Of a stretch of 11,118 nt of DNA, positions 1 through 11,118 are shown piece by piece; the stretch's first letter is position 1, and the number at the start of each line of letters is the position of its first letter. The stretch comes from Alistipes sp. GTDB lineage: Bacteria; Bacteroidota; Bacteroidia; Bacteroidales; Rikenellaceae. Under the pieces are notes generated by a model. The model was not told the DNA's origin and did not search any database. It saw only the letters and a list, made by a program, of their open reading frames with translations. The stretch covers positions 1 through 11,118 of the forward strand of contig JAFZDR010000229.1 of assembly GCA_017561105.1 (NCBI GenBank), read 5' to 3'. The position numbers and the translations under genes were made by a program.

Positions 1-3000
1 CATGTTACCATTGCTACGATCGAACTGGATATCACCATAGTTCTTACAGCCATTGATATTGAGAGAAATCGAAGCGTAACGCGACTGATGGTTCATAGAG
101 TTGTTAGCCTGACCACAGTTTCCAACCATACCTCCGGCGAACGATGTACCATTGTAGCTTGTAATAACGCTTACTGCCTTCGAGTAGAAGGTGATGTTAC
201 CTCTATTCTCGCACTGGTTCATATCAATAGTCAAATTGGTGTACGGAATCTGAAGCGACGCTGTAGACCACGAAGATGAACCTGTACGACCAGTAACAAT
301 GTTAAGGGCCTGAGCAAGCATACCACCAGCACACTGGTTGAACGAAGCACGGTTCTCGCCATAATAGATATTACCAGAGTTGCTACACTGGTTGAAAGTA
401 AGAGTCTTCTTAATCAACGAGCTCTTGTACTCTGCCGAACGAACACGACAATCGAAGCAGTTTGCAACGATACCTGCCATATTGATATAGAAGCTCGAGT
501 AGCGTACAGCTGTTGACAAGCTGGTACCGAAACCGGTATTATCAATCTTGATATTACCCGAGTTAGAACAGCTGGTAAGAGTTGTATAGGTAGACAAGAC
601 ATCTCCCAACACACCTGCCATATTAACCATCTTTGCATAAGGAGCATCCGGCACGATAACCTCTGCACGGTTCTGGCAGTTGGTCAAGAAGTGCTTAATA
701 TCCTTTGCAGAGTGATCGTGGATACGACCTACAACACCTGCCAAGTTCATACGATAGAATGGACGGAGGTTAGTACGATCCGGGTCATCGATATCGGCAG
801 ACTGCGCCTCCTGTGTCGAGTCCGAAGTCCAGTCAAGCGAACTTGTCTGCTTAGTACACTCAGGCGAGCCGTAGATAGTGATCTTACCGGTCTCCTCGTT
901 AGTCAAACCTGCAAGAGTGATTGCGTATGTGGTAGATGCAGCCTCTGCTACGTATGTACGACCTACAACACCACCAATATCGAAACGCGACGATGCCATC
1001 TCGTTCCACTGGTCAATCTTGAGTGGGTTAGGGTTACATGTGTGCTCGATAGTTGCAGTATTTGTCGAAGCCAATACATTTGTATCTGTCTCACCTACAA
1101 CACCACCGATTGCGAGATCGTGATCGTGAAGCTGCTTCGACAAGAGAGCCTTATCCTTAGACTCGAACTGACGGCTCACGAGGTCACCTGCATTACCTGT
1201 CGAAACAATCTTACCATTATTTATACAATTATATATAGGTGTCTTAATAGCCTGACCTACGATACCACCGATGTATGCACCATCGGTAACGAGAGCGTGG
1301 TAGCGAACCTCACCATCATTAGTACACTCTGCAAGGCAACGAGCCGGCTGAGCATCAGACTCTGCTGTAGAGTAACTAGCAGCGAACTCAGCATATCCTG
1401 CAATACCACCCAAGTATGCAGTAGTAGGGAACTCGATAGCCTCACCGAAATCAGGAATCTCAGCAACACCCTCATTCTGCAAACCGCTAACTGCGCCATT
1501 TGCAGTGAGCTTGATATGACCTACAGCACCTCCCACATAGAGAAGTGGAGTAAAGCCCTTAGCATATACATTACCACGGTTAGTAGCGTTGAAGCCACTA
1601 CCTGCACCCGACAACTCGGCTGTACCAACGTATCCACCTACGTGTGCCCAAGTTGTAGCACGACCATCGAATGTGATGACACCGGTAGCAGTATTAACGA
1701 ACTCTACAGGGTGCTGCGACTCTGTGTAGATACCTGCATAACCACCGAGGTGGAGCTGCTCAGTTACACCCGAGAAGGTTACAGTACCTGCATTCTGTAC
1801 TCCTGGCACTACATCTGCAGTCTTATTAGCCTTGTTCGAGTCACCGAAGATACCACCCACGCGGGCAATCTTAAGAACGCTATTCTTAACTACTACATTA
1901 CCTTTATTTGTTACATAAGGGAAAGTACCACCGAACTCCTCGATGTACTTAGTTGTTGCAAGCACACCACCGGCATATACATACCAGCAGTTCGACTTAT
2001 CACCAACGATTACATCACCGCTGTTAGAACAGTTCTCAACATTGATACGGTTCTTACACAACGAGTTGATCGCAGATATATATATGGTACGAACATCACC
2101 GTTGTCGAACTCTACCTTACCGCTGTTATCGCACTGAACGATATCGCACTCCGACTTCACATAACCAACAATCGCTGAAACATAGATTGCATTCATTGAA
2201 GATGTTTCGGTTGGTTTAGCCGCCTCCATCGCAAGAGTAGTCTCAACATACACCTTACCGCTATTGCTACAGCCTTCAACCTTATCAGAGTCAACTATAC
2301 CGACACAACCAGACGCTACAACATGACCGTTACCGCAATATGTATAAGCAGTAGTCACATTACCCTCATTCTGGCAGTTTTTAGTTACGGTAGGCTCAGA
2401 AAGCTTGAGCAAAGCCTGTGTACCCAAACGTGCACCGAATACGCCACCGATACCTGAAACATTCTCTGCAGAATCCTCATCTACGTGGTTTCCTGACAAC
2501 GATCCGCGTACGTCGATTACACCGGTCGACTTATTACCACAATTTTCAGCCTTATCAGACCAACAAACACCTACAACACCTCCGAGGTGCAATACGGTGT
2601 TACCTGTCTTTCCCTTCTGTGTATGAGTTACACACTCACCCAAGTAGGTAATCGAACCCGAGTTGTAGCACTCCGATACCAAAGCGGTATTCTTCTCAAC
2701 AACTGCAGCTACACCACCGATACGAGCGCTTGTAACAATCTTGAAGTTTGCGTTCAAGTTTACGTGACCGCTATTCTCGCAATCTACGAGCTGATTTTTA
2801 ACAGATTCGTCAGTGTTTGCCTCCAACTTACCGATAACACCACCGATGTTGGCTGTTGTTACCTGCTCGTTGATAGTCATCGAGCCCTGGTTTACGCATC
2901 GCTCAACCGAAACCGAAGCAGCACCGATAACGCCACCCCAATCCAAGTCGTGCATAGCCTCACGGATCTCAAGGTTACCTGTATTTGTGTTATCAGTGAA

Positions 3001-4557
3001 TGTACCGGCTGTAACGTAACCTGCAACACCACCGATAAATGGAGTTACCTTTGTGTTGTTCGAAGCATCATCCCAAACGATAGTACCGTTGCTTGTACAC
3101 TCCGACACTACAGGCTGAGTCTCGCCCGAAGCGCAAGCGTAACCTACAACACCACCAAAGCATGGAGTGTAGAGAGCATCGCCATCAGGACCTGCTACGC
3201 TAACTGTTACATTAACATTGCTCTTGACAATAGATACCTCAGCACCATATACTGTACCTACAGCACCACCGACATTTACCAAGTCGTAGTTTGCGTTTGC
3301 TGTAACATTAGGATTCTTGTACTCGATAGAACCTGCAACCGAACAGTTGAAGATCTTACCGCCTACTGCCAAAGAGCGAGCGAGCAAACCAACCTTGCTG
3401 TTGCTCTCCTCAACAATGTTACCCTCAACATTCAAGTTAGAGATCTGAGCCACAACATTCTCACCAAAGAGAGGCTCTGTTAAGCCCTTAATTGTGAAGT
3501 GGCGACCCTCGAACGGCAAAGTGTAACCCTCGATAGTATTGAAGCCCTTCTCTGTTACATCTACATCAGCGGTGAGCAATGCACCCGAGTATGTAGTGTT
3601 AAAAGTGCCATTCTTAACCATCTCTGCAAACGACAACAACTCTGCGTCGCTGCCGATGAGATACATGTTGCTGTCTGCCGAGAACTCAACCTCTGGGAAC
3701 TCACGCACCTTACCTGCTTTGAGAGCATACTCCTCAGAGCCCTTGAAAGTTCTAACGCAAACCTGGCCGTTGTTTGCAACGAAGTTAACCTCGAAGCCCG
3801 AATATGAGCCGTGAGGAACTGCGATGTAGAATACCGCGCCATTCTCGTCGAGTGTGTAGCTGTCGTTCTCGAAGTTGTAGAAGACAGTCGAAGTTGTACC
3901 CTCGCGAGCTGTAATTGCGCCGGTCTGCTCATCATTCTCGTCATTGCTGCCGCAATAAACATCGAAGACTCCCGCGATAGGCTCAGCACCAACAGTCGCA
4001 ACCGAAACATACTTCAAGTCAACTGTTGCACCCGCTGCAGCCTTAACAGGGAAACGAAGCACGGTCGAGAGGTGGTGCATCTGAATATCAGAGAAACCAT
4101 CCGACCAAGAGTGCATCGGAGCTGCACCTTGTGCGAAAGTACCCTCGGTGTGCATCTGATTTACAGCAAACACTACCGGATACAAACCGCTACCGCTATT
4201 CACCGCTACATCTTCACCCGGATAAGGGTAAACAATGTGATACGGAATAGTCGAGCCAAGAGGCAAATCAAAAACTGCAATCGACTTATTCTCCTCGTTA
4301 ATTGCAATGTTGGTGGTTGGCTTACCATTTACGGCAAGAACATCACCCTCACTCCAAAAAACAGGATACTTTCCGTCAACCTTCTCGCCCAATTCTGTAC
4401 GAGTAGGAGTAGGAAGAGCCACCTGCAGCGTCTTGACCTCACCACTTCCATTGACTGACCCCGATACTACCGGAGCCAAGTCCTCGGTTGAATCTTGCAC
4501 GCAAGAGTAAGTTGCGAGCAGAACTACCGCCATCAAAAGTTTAGTAAAATTTTTCAC
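1..4557 (-). CDS. Giant repeat-rich fimbrillin-like surface lipoprotein (C-terminus outside window)
   Basis: The frame is open for all 1519 codons from a GTG at 4557 to the left edge, so the protein is partial. No ATG lies between the upstream in-frame stop and the GTG. The GTG start gives a lipoprotein signal, KNFTKLLMAVVLLATYSC, with the lipidated Cys at residue 19, followed by an acidic stretch (QDSTED) like that of surface-exported Bacteroidetes lipoproteins. Residues about 50-290 resemble a Mfa-like/fimbrillin domain: TPTRTELG at 50-57, then WSEGD at 68-72. From residue about 298 a GLUG-type region begins (LIGSDAELLSFAEMV), with FEGRHFTIKGL. From about residue 429 to the edge there are about 25 degenerate units with GGxVG-like cores (GGVVG, GGIAG, AGVLG) alternating with CxNSGxI-like turns, roughly 44 residues apart. 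I infer a beta-solenoid adhesin or scaffold at the cell surface. Its ligand is unknown. Confidence 0.88.
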   Translation of the reverse strand, partial: MKNFTKLLMAVVLLATYSCVQDSTEDLAPVVSGSVNGSGEVKTLQVALPTPTRTELGEKVDGKYPVFWSEGDVLAVNGKPTTNIAINEENKSIAVFDLPLGSTIPYHIVYPYPGEDVAVNSGSGLYPVVFAVNQMHTEGTFAQGAAPMHSWSDGFSDIQMHHLSTVLRFPVKAAAGATVDLKYVSVATVGAEPIAGVFDVYCGSNDENDEQTGAITAREGTTSTVFYNFENDSYTLDENGAVFYIAVPHGSYSGFEVNFVANNGQVCVRTFKGSEEYALKAGKVREFPEVEFSADSNMYLIGSDAELLSFAEMVKNGTFNTTYSGALLTADVDVTEKGFNTIEGYTLPFEGRHFTIKGLTEPLFGENVVAQISNLNVEGNIVEESNSKVGLLARSLAVGGKIFNCSVAGSIEYKNPNVTANANYDLVNVGGAVGTVYGAEVSIVKSNVNVTVSVAGPDGDALYTPCFGGVVGYACASGETQPVVSECTSNGTIVWDDASNNTKVTPFIGGVAGYVTAGTFTDNTNTGNLEIREAMHDLDWGGVIGAASVSVERCVNQGSMTINEQVTTANIGGVIGKLEANTDESVKNQLVDCENSGHVNLNANFKIVTSARIGGVAAVVEKNTALVSECYNSGSITYLGECVTHTQKGKTGNTVLHLGGVVGVCWSDKAENCGNKSTGVIDVRGSLSGNHVDEDSAENVSGIGGVFGARLGTQALLKLSEPTVTKNCQNEGNVTTAYTYCGNGHVVASGCVGIVDSDKVEGCSNSGKVYVETTLAMEAAKPTETSSMNAIYVSAIVGYVKSECDIVQCDNSGKVEFDNGDVRTIYISAINSLCKNRINVENCSNSGDVIVGDKSNCWYVYAGGVLATTKYIEEFGGTFPYVTNKGNVVVKNSVLKIARVGGIFGDSNKANKTADVVPGVQNAGTVTFSGVTEQLHLGGYAGIYTESQHPVEFVNTATGVITFDGRATTWAHVGGYVGTAELSGAGSGFNATNRGNVYAKGFTPLLYVGGAVGHIKLTANGAVSGLQNEGVAEIPDFGEAIEFPTTAYLGGIAGYAEFAASYSTAESDAQPARCLAECTNDGEVRYHALVTDGAYIGGIVGQAIKTPIYNCINNGKIVSTGNAGDLVSRQFESKDKALLSKQLHDHDLAIGGVVGETDTNVLASTNTATIEHTCNPNPLKIDQWNEMASSRFDIGGVVGRTYVAEAASTTYAITLAGLTNEETGKITIYGSPECTKQTSSLDWTSDSTQEAQSADIDDPDRTNLRPFYRMNLAGVVGRIHDHSAKDIKHFLTNCQNRAEVIVPDAPYAKMVNMAGVLGDVLSTYTTLTSCSNSGNIKIDNTGFGTSLSTAVRYSSFYINMAGIVANCFDCRVRSAEYKSSLIKKTLTFNQCSNSGNIYYGENRASFNQCAGGMLAQALNIVTGRTGSSSWSTASLQIPYTNLTIDMNQCENRGNITFYSKAVSVITSYNGTSFAGGMVGNCGQANNSMNHQSRYASISLNINGCKNYGDIQFDRSNGNM

Positions 4558-8429: not shown

Positions 8430-8834
8430 ATGCAACAATCTATTTCTATCCACACCGACGACAATGGTAATTTCGTACTCGGCGGCGACCTCAAACTCGA
8501 CAAATTAAACCCAAAGGAGCTACTGCTCTACTCTACCGCATTGTGCGCAGGATTGACCCTGCAATCCATCACCGAGAAGGAGCGCGTAAAGCTACTGAAG
8601 GTAGAGATTAAGATGTCGGGCAAATTGGACACGGAGAAGGTCGAAGGGCGCAGTCAGTTCACCTCGTTTGACATAAGCTACAATATCGAGTGCAAGCATA
8701 TCGAGGAGCAGACAAAGGTTTCGCACGCCGTGCAACTCACCACCGACAAATACTGCGGAGGTTTAAATATGCTGCGCAAGATTGCCCCCGTATCACACTC
8801 CGTTTCGATTGTCAGCATCGAGGTTAGCAAATAA
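8430..8834 (+). CDS. OsmC-family protein (putative thiol peroxidase)
   Basis: This 134-residue protein has the OsmC/Ohr fold signature. The N-terminal strands (SISIHTDDNGNFVLGGD) are followed by NPKELLLYSTALCAGLT with Cys39 on the central helix, then the strand KLLKVEIKMSGKLD, and a second Cys109 in TDKYCGGLNMLRKIAPVS. In OsmC and Ohr two such cysteines form the peroxidatic and resolving pair that reduces organic hydroperoxides. It lacks features that would separate OsmC from the broader YhfA-like group, so the substrate is open. The gap of 67 nt after the nuclease gene holds only imperfect promoter-like sequence (TAGATTTTG at 8396-8404, one base longer than the consensus). It may be read from the upstream cluster or from its own promoter. 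A terminator follows at once. Confidence 0.85.
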   Translation: MQQSISIHTDDNGNFVLGGDLKLDKLNPKELLLYSTALCAGLTLQSITEKERVKLLKVEIKMSGKLDTEKVEGRSQFTSFDISYNIECKHIEEQTKVSHAVQLTTDKYCGGLNMLRKIAPVSHSVSIVSIEVSK

Positions 8835-8835
8835 T

Positions 8836-8870
8836 AAAAAGGGATTGTCCGTAGCGACAATCTTTTTTTT
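8836..8870 (+). terminator. Intrinsic terminator after the OsmC-family gene
   Basis: GATTGTC (8843-8849) pairs perfectly with GACAATC (8856-8862) around a 6-nt loop, followed by a run of eight T residues (8863-8870). The five A residues at 8836-8840 pair with the T tract, so it could also act on the opposite strand. It separates the galM-to-OsmC block from the B12-regulated block. Confidence 0.9.
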
Positions 8871-8926
8871 GTTTAGAAGCCGGAGATATGATGACGAAAT
8901 AGGCTGTAACAAAAAAATAGAGATAC

Positions 8927-8960
8927 TCTGTACATCGTATCGAAATAATTCATATCTTTG
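8927..8960 (+). promoter_or_regulatory. Promoter for the cobalamin riboswitch transcript
   Basis: TATCTTTG at 8953-8960 is a full match to the Bacteroidetes -7 element. A poor -33 match, TCTG at 8927-8930, lies 22 nt upstream. Transcription starting six or seven bases after the -7 element would begin almost exactly at the first base of the riboswitch P1 stem (8966), which supports the call. Confidence 0.65.
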
Positions 8961-8965
8961 CATCA

Positions 8966-9184
8966 GCAAAAGGAGCCGAGCGTGGCTAAGCGCCACAATC
9001 GGTGAAAAGGGAATTCGGTGAGAAGCCGAGACAATACCAGTTGCTGTAAGTCCCATCCTTAGTGGAGGTTACATTCGTAGCAGCCATGCGACAAAAAGGA
9101 TGAACGGTTGACGCACTCTTTGCCACTGATCCAGAGAGATTGGGAAGGCGCGACAACAGGACAAGTCAGAAGACCTGCCTTTGC
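8966..9184 (+). ncRNA. Cobalamin (vitamin B12) riboswitch
   Basis: The RNA has the hallmarks of the class. P1 is formed by 8966-8973 and CCTTTGC at 9178-9184 with one bulged A. CCGA (8976-8979) pairs with TCGG (8999-9002), and inside it GTGG (8982-8985) pairs with CCAC (8993-8996). The core GGGAATTCGGTG (9009-9020) leads to GTTGCTGTAAG (9040-9050). CATCCTT (9054-9060) pairs with AAGGATG (9096-9102). GCCACTG (9122-9128) and GGGAAGGCG (9142-9150) precede the conserved B12 box AAGTCAGAAGACCTGCC at 9163-9179. The family binds a cobalamin and turns off B12 uptake genes when the vitamin is plentiful. Downstream lie a small protein and a large lipoprotein, its likely targets. The gap before the first credible start codon is long. 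Confidence 0.93.
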
Positions 9185-9423
9185 ATTAACGATCTATTAC
9201 CTGCTGGGATATGGGTAGTGATCACGCTTATTTTATTACTGCTATTTTGCTTGTTATTTAGCGAAACTATGCACATTTGGGGTGTTATGGCTCTGCTGTA
9301 CCCTATTGTGTATGTTTGTACTCCATTGTAGGGGTATTCTCTCTGCACACCATGTGTGCTTTGCGGTCGGGCATTCTGCAGTGATAACCGAGGTGAATAA
9401 CCATAAAAGAAGATATTACAGCT
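9185..9423 (+). other. Leader or spacer between the riboswitch and the small ORF
   Basis: This 239-nt stretch has no convincing gene. Two very short hydrophobic frames occur: 9211-9261 (16 codons, MGSDHAYFITAILLVI) and 9269-9331 (20 codons, MHIWGVMALLYPIVYVCTPL). A small hairpin (GCACAC, 3-nt loop, GTGTGC) lies at 9345-9359 without a T tract. TATGTTTG at 9311-9318 matches a -7 element but lacks a good -33 partner. It may be the riboswitch expression platform, a remnant of a lost gene, or a site of a second promoter. Confidence 0.5.
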
Positions 9424-9561
9424 ATGATGAAGAGTCAGATCGCACGCACAGTGGTGCAGAGTTACACACAACCTTCGGTAGAGGTTGTGATGGTCAATGT
9501 GGAGTCAGGGTTCGAACTCTCGAACTTGCAGCAGGAACCATCGCCTTGGGAAGATATGTAG
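9424..9561 (+). CDS. Small protein (45 residues) ahead of the B12-linked lipoprotein
   Basis: The frame starts ATGATGAAG at 9424 and stops with TAG at 9559-9561. The product contains YTQPSVEVVMVNVESGFELS and ends in PWEDM. It has no signal peptide or membrane segment. The pattern 'P-x-V-E-V-V-x-V-x-V-E-x-G-F ... W-E-D' resembles short unnamed proteins often found just before fimbrillin-type lipoproteins in Bacteroidales; that resemblance is from memory and not a search. It ends 24 nt before the lipoprotein start in the same operon orientation. AAAAGAAGA lies shortly upstream of the start. The function is unknown. A second ATG at 9427 could be the true start. Confidence 0.65.
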   Translation: MMKSQIARTVVQSYTQPSVEVVMVNVESGFELSNLQQEPSPWEDM

Positions 9562-9585
9562 AACAAACCTTATACCTATGTTATT

Positions 9586-11118
9586 ATGAAGAAGAGTATA
9601 TTAGTGGTTATGGCAGCGATGCTTGTTGTTGCATGCCAGCAGGAGAACTTAATGGAATCAACATTCGGAGATGCGTTGGTGGTTACAGGTCGTTGCGATG
9701 CTGATAGTCGTACGGCATTTGGAACACCAAGCAACGCGGAGATACCATATCGCTGGTTGGCTGGCGACTATATCTGGTTGGGGAATAATAAGAGTTCGGC
9801 TATTGCGGAGGAGTGCACCTTGGCTCAGTTCGAGTTTAGGGGAGGTACAGCCATAGTTGGTATTGGACATCTGTTTTACAATATGACAGGTCAAGCAAAA
9901 AATGCCAAGGTGCTCTCATCGCAAACGGCAGACGGAAATCTCGGTAACGATGGCGACTTCGGATATGCTGTATTGGATGAGTATAACGTCTTCTGCTTAG
10001 AGCACAAGACCGCCTATGTTTGGTTCGACACCAAGAGTAATGATAGCGATATGCCAAAACTCATATCGATTAAGCTCGCCACCGAGGGCGCGGCCATTGC
10101 GGGTGAGCGCATATACGATTTTGCAAACAATAAATGGGATGCTGAAACCACAAACGGTAGCTCGGAGATTGTGCTTAACTTTGAGGATGGCTATCAGTTG
10201 CAGCCTGTAAATGAGGCTATTATGGCGGCTATGGTGGTGCTTCCTGCCGAGGTTGCAGGTTCGAAGCTGACTGTCACCTATACCTTCGAGGATGAGAGCA
10301 CCTTTACCGAGGAGAAGACTCCGTCGAAGAGCTTTGTGAGTGGTGCAACACAGCGCATTGTGACAACCATTAGCAAGAGTGATCTTAAGCAGAAAGAGCC
10401 GGAACTTGGCTATGAGTTGCGCGTCTTGACCTTCGAGGATAAGGATGTGAAGTTCTCGCCATTTTACTTGGACTATGCCGACGGTTGGGCAGGTCGCGAG
10501 ATTAAAAAGTGGAGCGACCTTATTGACAATCCGCAGTATAGTGGCCCGCTGATGTATGGCAACGACGCTATGGATGCTATGTATTATTGGTATGATGAGG
10601 GCAACACCGAGCTCTACCATATGTTCCCTGACAACTACGCATATTGCTTCTGGGGTGGTGGTCACGCTATCTCAAACTATTGGGGAGCAGGTTATGCTGA
10701 CGAGAATAGAGATGCTCATATTTTGAAATACTATGGTCAGGAGTATCTTGATCAGTGGGCAGGCAAGCAAGGCGCAGATGGCGCACTCGGTTGGTTCTTA
10801 TTGCAGTTGATGACCCCTGTCGCTCCACACTCGGGCAACAACTTCTGTGTGCACTATGGCTATAAGGATTTCTTCTCGTACATAGAGAATCTTCCCGAGA
10901 TTTCGTTTGCAGACTGCGAGCCTCGAGTAATCGACCATATGTGGGTAACAAATACCAATTACACCCTCAATCAGCTCCACAATGGAGTAAAGAGCGAGGA
11001 GGGAAATAGCTTCGGTGGCAATTGGAGCGGTTTAAAGGAGGATGCTTGGCTCAAGATTGTGGCTTATGGCTACGATTCGATTGATGCAGATCCTACATCT
11101 GACGAGCCGACAAGCACA
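9586..11118 (+). CDS. Fimbrillin-like lipoprotein with DUF4465-like C-terminal domain, putative B12-linked (partial)
   Basis: The frame is open from ATG 9586 to the right edge (511 codons), so the C-terminus is missing. MKKSILVVMAAMLVVAC is a lipoprotein signal with Cys17. The N-terminal part looks fimbrillin-like: DSRTAFG at 40-46, then RWLAGDYIWLG at 56-66, and IMAAMVVLPAEVAGSKLTVTY further on. From about residue 278 (YELRVLTFED) the sequence changes to a DUF4465-like domain: WGGGHAISNYWGAGY at 356-370, VTNTNYTLNQLHNG at 454-467, and DAWLKIVAYGYD near 486-497. The tail (PTSDEPTST) looks like a low-complexity linker, so more may follow. The upstream cobalamin riboswitch and surface-lipoprotein features suggest a B12-binding accessory protein like Bacteroides BtuH. 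That function is inference; the ligand-binding residues cannot be read here. Confidence 0.82.
   Translation, partial: MKKSILVVMAAMLVVACQQENLMESTFGDALVVTGRCDADSRTAFGTPSNAEIPYRWLAGDYIWLGNNKSSAIAEECTLAQFEFRGGTAIVGIGHLFYNMTGQAKNAKVLSSQTADGNLGNDGDFGYAVLDEYNVFCLEHKTAYVWFDTKSNDSDMPKLISIKLATEGAAIAGERIYDFANNKWDAETTNGSSEIVLNFEDGYQLQPVNEAIMAAMVVLPAEVAGSKLTVTYTFEDESTFTEEKTPSKSFVSGATQRIVTTISKSDLKQKEPELGYELRVLTFEDKDVKFSPFYLDYADGWAGREIKKWSDLIDNPQYSGPLMYGNDAMDAMYYWYDEGNTELYHMFPDNYAYCFWGGGHAISNYWGAGYADENRDAHILKYYGQEYLDQWAGKQGADGALGWFLLQLMTPVAPHSGNNFCVHYGYKDFFSYIENLPEISFADCEPRVIDHMWVTNTNYTLNQLHNGVKSEEGNSFGGNWSGLKEDAWLKIVAYGYDSIDADPTSDEPTST

Follow-up and report, generated by a model that had tools for sequence, protein, structure and literature searches.

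A riboswitch-headed locus of an Alistipes species encoding a fimbrillin-like/DUF4465 lipoprotein, a probable BtuJ-type vitamin B12 trap

The locus described here occupies the right-hand end of an 11,118-base stretch of Alistipes sp. DNA, referred to as the window, which is the entire contig C242 of assembly G000 (246 contigs, 69.6% complete). A cobalamin riboswitch is followed on the same strand by a 45-codon small open reading frame (ORF) and by the gene of a lipoprotein that joins a fimbrillin-like domain to a DUF4465 domain (Table 1). This arrangement had been proposed in a sequence-only reading of the window and was found again: the riboswitch matched the RF00174 covariance model with 63.1 bits (gathering threshold 31.5, E 5.1e-14) and both ORFs follow it. 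The lipoprotein gene was completed to 573 codons through an exact 41-base overlap of the window contig with contig C49.

Table 1. Features at the right-hand end of the window
Feature	Position	Strand	Remarks
-7-like element TATCTTTG	8953..8960	+	fits TAnnTTTG; lies where the riboswitch begins
Cobalamin riboswitch aptamer, RF00174	8954..9196	+	63.1 bits
Leader, aptamer to small ORF	9197..9423	+	no + strand terminator-like site listed; fold z -1.37
Small ORF, 45 codons	9424..9561	+	14 aligned rows, window included; ratio of nonsynonymous to synonymous differences (pN/pS) 0.36
Lipoprotein gene	9586..11118	+	511 of 573 codons; cut by the contig end, remainder on C49
Putative signal peptide and lipobox ending at Cys17	9586..9636	+	Cys17 invariant in a 29-row alignment
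Fimbrillin-like domain, residues ~26-267	9661..10386	+	
DUF4465 (BtuJ-type) domain, residues 275-511 of 275-573	10408..11118	+	
Tyr459 codon	10960..10962	+	aligns with B12-binding Tyr146 of BtuJ1

The invariant Cys17 at the end of the lipobox is a putative lipid anchor, and the protein presumably faces outward. Structure prediction was carried out on the homologous protein P0001. The first model, made with 29 rows, had a mean predicted local distance difference test (pLDDT) score of 67.5 and was weak in the C-terminal half, for which reason a second model was made with 59 rows (mean pLDDT 82.4). Both models agree on a fimbrillin fold, at residues ~26-267, and an augmented beta-jelly-roll fold, so the predicted structure bears out the fimbrillin-like N-terminal half proposed earlier. 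The fimbrillin-like match stops at about residue 267-270 and DUF4465 begins at about 275. An RT motif after the first strand is presumably common to residues ~26-267 and to fimbrillin-like proteins and type V pilins. Pfam Mfa_like was not among the matches listed for the window ORF; Mfa_like_1 was found in 5 of 29 proteins at E <= 1 (best 1.1e-4), and L008 scored 17.2 with Mfa_like_2 against a cut-off of 20. Two further, diverged Mfa_like_1/DUF4465 fusions were observed at L091:1501-3348 and L107:2109-3914, with 55.8 and 52.6 bits for Mfa_like_1 (cut-off 27) and 158.6 and 91.8 bits for DUF4465, respectively. In view of these two fusions, the pairing of the two domains may have more than one origin.

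The C-terminal half was matched by DUF4465 (PF14717, IPR027828) with 36.8 bits in the truncated ORF, above the cut-off of 25 and in line with the earlier assignment, and with 92.9 bits in P0001. DUF4465 is the BtuJ family, for which B12 binding is published in the available parts of PMC12751083 and PMC13398666; according to the former, BtuJ proteins bind cobalamin and participate in vesicle-based capture. Tyr459 and Tyr561, the latter encoded on C49 outside the window, align with the B12-binding Tyr146 and Tyr245 of BtuJ1, which lie in loops DE and HI. Both columns are invariant in 29 rows; with 59 rows Tyr459 stays invariant and Tyr561 is conserved in at least 90%. The likening of this half to BtuH in the sequence-only reading had to be dropped: neither P0001 nor the family profile matched the BtuH chains 7BIZ and 8BLW up to E 1, and BtuH is a separate protein encoded by the next gene. 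A DUF4465 match was found in 110 of the 121 genomes sampled from the genus, counting G000. Besides the present gene, G000 has a second, diverged one for DUF4465 (L040; C135:3051-3542, 57.9 bits, in a 255-codon frame), and the contig that bears it shows no cobalamin riboswitch match. Locus L010 is labelled Bacteroidaceae and its DUF4465 groups among Rikenellaceae in the tree, which points to misbinning or transfer.

On C49 the lipoprotein gene is followed by genes for BtuH (7biz, E 4.9e-103), BtuG (8bmx_D, E 2.3e-191) and BtuB (8bmx_C, E 0). The operon order is thus riboswitch, small ORF, fimbrillin-like/DUF4465 lipoprotein, BtuH, BtuG and BtuB, and most relatives have the same order. We compared the locus with a census of 56 distinct DUF4465 loci, which remained from the window, 34 loci and 40 stretches (75 in total) after removal of 5 without a DUF4465 match and 14 duplicates; the 40 stretches were hand-picked, long frames first, out of the 121-genome list. 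In the 20 distinct loci with a fimbrillin-like front end, BtuH was found 19 times, BtuG 18 times and BtuB 16 times within the sequence available, the window, L007 and L013 being cut by contig ends. A locus without a transporter was rejected on the basis of C49 and the census. The search to the right for btuB and btuG that had been suggested earlier was thereby successful, and with BtuH, BtuG and BtuB behind it the gene opens a btu operon of a known type. Of the possible new B12-capture system once proposed, capture of B12 stands as the likely job; the novelty of the system does not. In the published model, as far as given in the available part of PMC10404256, BtuG forms a lid over BtuB; accessory lipoproteins, BtuH among them, have a very high affinity for B12 and may deliver it to the BtuBG complex.

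The riboswitch was found upstream in all 20 distinct fimbrillin-fronted census loci; that of L012 is truncated by a contig end (33.4 bits). That of the window is the single cobalamin riboswitch found in the G000 assembly. An element resembling TAnnTTTG, which we take to be the Bacteroidetes -7 consensus, lies where the riboswitch begins in 14 of the 15 loci examined, L015 being the exception, and this consensus has 7 matches on the + strand across the entire window. The sole terminator-like site listed within 8700-9700 is at 8843-8862 on the - strand. None was listed on the + strand in this interval and thus none between the aptamer and the small ORF, so the doubt raised earlier about a terminator before position 9424 is not borne out by the sites listed. 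The RNA fold of 9197-9440 was unremarkable (z -1.37). The presence of the riboswitch agrees with the earlier description of the lipoprotein gene as B12-regulated, and its transcript would be expected to respond to B12. Of 16 loci examined, 6 have an additional ORF of 169-195 residues in the interval from the riboswitch to the small ORF (L006:3962-4498, L007:9310-9819, L008:9251-9838, L011:9327-9839, L013:9309-9818 and L014:9317-9841); no Pfam match over cut-off was obtained for the five of these six that were tested.

The front end of the lipoprotein varies among relatives. At this operon position, L016, L017 and L022 carry DUF4465 behind a DUF4988 coiled coil and collagen-like repeats, with Pfam Collagen over cut-off only in L016. 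A tree was built from the DUF4465 domains of 48 of the 56 loci (at least 180 bits and at least 150 residues), with stalk labels assigned by profile and letter patterns. On this tree the fimbrillin-like front end requires 7 changes, of which at least 5 fall on well-supported branches. Grouping of the fimbrillin-like front ends in one clade was rejected (approximately unbiased test, p-AU 5e-52). After L005, the nearest relative of the window is L016, which bears the other stalk. The slot-mates L161-L163, from three further families of the order, are likewise coiled-coil-like in front, as judged by eye. Furthermore, a protein from another genus of the family (L164:1501-3837) has, before BspA-type leucine-rich repeats (LRR_5, 217 bits), a fimbrillin-like domain of the same type that shares 39% identity with the L020 protein across residues 20-286 of the latter. 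The repeated exchange together with this fusion favours a mobile stalk. The sequences indicate that DUF4465 in this slot is carried on interchangeable front ends, either fimbrillin-like or DUF4988/collagen-like.

The small ORF shares the core Y..P..EV..V.VE.GF..S....PSPWEDM across its alignment, and no signal peptide is apparent in it. Its pooled pN/pS contrasts with values of 0.84 and 1.56 for the two alternative frames, calculated over six pairs that were chosen by the analyst and include one, L007-L013, that hardly varies. Since the ratio is low in its own frame alone, the small ORF was read as a protein under purifying selection. In 14 loci, 16-39 bases separate it from the start codon that follows. 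All 20 fimbrillin-fronted census loci possess it versus none of the 36 others, counting loci regardless of kinship. The segment Y..P...EV..V.VE.G resembles a beta strand, which hints at a possible strand donor or folding partner; the lack of an evident signal peptide makes a donor acting outside the cell less likely.

A profile of the small ORF matched 24 places in G000 at E <= 1. Three of these immediately precede a fimbrillin-like lipoprotein, 17 follow a large repeat lipoprotein at a distance of 18-25 bases and four abut contig ends. Eight of the 17 repeat lipoproteins have their start on the contig, and in these inspection by eye revealed a lipobox as well as an RT...W...D motif of the fimbrillin-like kind. 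The ORFs behind the repeat lipoproteins (L131-L148) are about 38 residues long with a core like MKNYLKPEFEIFEVAVEGGYGDSVLLPGFG and are found on contigs C92, C106, C179, C238, C154, C6, C83, C44, C223, C112, C31, C32, C183 and C172. The window itself contains, at 1-4557 on the - strand, a lipoprotein of the same kind with more than 1,500 residues, a lipobox, RTELGEKVDGKYPVFWSEGD, many repeats and a weak Peptidase_M26_N match (20 bits, cut-off 27.7); its 3' end, the expected site of a 38-residue ORF, is beyond the contig. Among 10 places inspected by eye in five other genomes of the order, five precede a fimbrillin-like lipoprotein (L151, L153, L154, L158 and L159). At L155 the small ORF is behind a fimbrillin-like fragment, and at L152 it was not recovered by the search pattern and a fimbrillin-like gene is near. 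At L126:4734-4877 (- strand) a small ORF (29 bits) directly precedes a lipoprotein that has a fimbrillin-like start and no DUF4465.

We consider it very probable that the locus is the head of a riboswitch-controlled B12 uptake operon in which a BtuJ-type surface trap on an exchangeable stalk feeds BtuH, BtuG and BtuB. At low intracellular cobalamin the riboswitch would permit expression of the operon. The lipoprotein, lipid-anchored at Cys17 and facing outward, would bind cobalamin with its DUF4465 jelly roll through the loops bearing Tyr459 and Tyr561, and the cobalamin would be handed, directly or via BtuH, to BtuG, the lid of BtuB. As an exchangeable stalk, the fimbrillin-like half may keep the binding domain off the surface, and the small ORF would be tied functionally to this stalk and not to B12 chemistry. 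More tentatively, and with the balance of probability rather against it, the small ORF could be one of an unnamed set of 35-60-residue Bacteroidales proteins that are dedicated partners of fimbrillin-like lipoproteins, serving as export or folding helper or as strand donor, and that are exchanged with the stalk as a cassette onto different working domains, including a B12-binding one.

The position of the small ORF between riboswitch and lipoprotein, close to the next start codon, would also fit a riboswitch leader peptide or translational coupler of the B12 operon. We regard this as unlikely: the small ORF precedes none of the 36 loci without a fimbrillin-like front end, yet the riboswitch was present in 16 of the 17 of these that were scanned. 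Moreover, all 20 judgeable small ORFs of G000 adjoin fimbrillin-like or repeat lipoproteins in an assembly with one cobalamin riboswitch, and selection on the small ORF acts at the amino acid level. Less likely still is that the DUF4465 half has lost B12 binding or takes another ligand. Its identity to BtuJ proteins is just ~19-26%, and the N-terminal loops of the DUF4465 family are variable according to the available part of PMC13398666; the two aligned tyrosines are conserved as described above.

A further explanation is that the fimbrillin-like half is a working pilin, in which case DUF4465 would sit on a type V filament, at its tip or along its length, and B12 would be caught away from the cell. 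The stem pilins of type V pili, we assume, have a C-terminal tail after the fimbrillin fold. Such a tail is absent here, as DUF4465 starts within a few residues of the end of the fimbrillin-like match; tip subunits would still be compatible. Strong Mfa2-type anchors (at least 90 bits, a line drawn after seeing the scores) were found in 3 of 12 genomes with the fimbrillin-like stalk versus 8 of 8 with other stalks, and at the family cut-off in 7 of 12 versus 8 of 8. FimA was found in 2 of 12 versus 7 of 8, one of the seven being under cut-off. Differences in completeness may explain part of this gap in the 20 genomes, G000 having neither protein at its 69.6%. In addition, the operon showed no pilin gene, and the other stalk used in this slot does not resemble a pilin. 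The missing tail and the scarcity of strong anchors in carriers make a filament unlikely, which weakens the earlier idea of a B12 trap on a filament; we give it a probability between those of the other two explanations. The other role suggested earlier for the fimbrillin-like front end, that of a partner-binding domain, may still apply.

Several observations weigh against the trap-on-a-stalk operon or its small-ORF component. The census loci are mostly from metagenome-assembled genomes, with contig ends and possible misbinning. The modelled protein P0001 is 96% identical to the joined window sequence, with 20 differences. The riboswitch of the window scores near the bottom of its group (63.1 bits, with L027 at 63.1, L011 at 63.8 and L005 at 64.4; the rest reach up to 108.7), and the leader 9197-9423 is only a putative expression platform. 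L011 has the front end and BtuH without BtuG or BtuB in the available stretch. It is by its exchange that the fimbrillin-like half is suggested to have a stalk function. The 20-of-20 association of the small ORF rests on a fimbrillin-like profile built from the same group; in a wider Pfam count the small ORF accompanies 21 of 22 fimbrillin/DUF4465 fusions, with L107 having it (the census row for L107 is that of the adjacent DUF4465 gene) and L091 lacking it, with only some 10-20 bases from that gene to the preceding one. The small ORF tracks the stalk in 5 of 5 independent, well-supported exchanges (sign test p 0.0625), the only five that were testable. Nine of the 17 repeat lipoproteins in G000 are fragments with repeats. 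At E <= 0.001 the small-ORF profile matched only 6 of the 198 genomes of the order, one of them G000, and L150, L156 and L157 have other or ambiguous neighbours (PKD-type at L156, a glycosidase-like fragment at L157).

The B12 part of the locus is already known in kind, being a member of the published BtuJ/DUF4465 family. As far as our limited literature search shows, what is apparently new is the fimbrillin-like stalk, the finding that it has been exchanged repeatedly, and the small ORF that accompanies it; the word 'fimbrillin' is absent from the available parts of PMC13398666 and PMC12751083. The Rikenellaceae protein '656' tested in the former may itself be a fimbrillin/DUF4465 fusion. Gut communities are shaped by competition for B12, and the catalogue of accessory lipoproteins in btu operons is still growing. 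The locus suggests that a fimbrillin-like domain may act as a stalk instead of a pilin. The small ORF follows the fimbrillin-like front end across independent exchanges while under selection at the amino acid level. It opens an overlooked class of small proteins to testing and is a good candidate for the dedicated partner of a very common Bacteroidales surface-protein fold.

The lipoprotein shares the fold of residues ~26-267 and the lipobox with fimbrillin-like cell-adhesion proteins of Bacteroides (PDB 4K4K, 3T2L, 3UFI and 3SY6) and with FimA/Mfa type V pilins. Unlike these it has no C-terminal tail, DUF4465 follows immediately and no pilus genes were seen nearby. The DUF4988/collagen-like-fronted L016, L017 and L022 have the same slot and downstream genes, and their DUF4465 domains score 562-596 bits on the profile from the fimbrillin-fronted group; they differ in the stalk and in the absence of the small ORF. 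BtuH1 and BtuH2 (PDB 7BIZ) are also accessory surface lipoproteins of B12 operons with a C-terminal binding domain and varying front ends (PKD, beta-propeller or none in the available part of PMC8941943), but their binding domain differs from the DUF4465 half, without a sequence match. The closest likeness is to BtuJ1 and BtuJ2 of Bacteroides thetaiotaomicron (PDB 9FCT, 9QPM and 9I2L), lipoproteins with the same DUF4465 jelly roll and both B12 tyrosines that, like the present protein, belong to a riboswitch-controlled btu operon with BtuB, BtuG and BtuH. The crystallized BtuJ chains comprise 244-305 residues without a front domain, whereas the protein described here carries a fimbrillin-like domain of ~245 residues in front and is accompanied by the small ORF.
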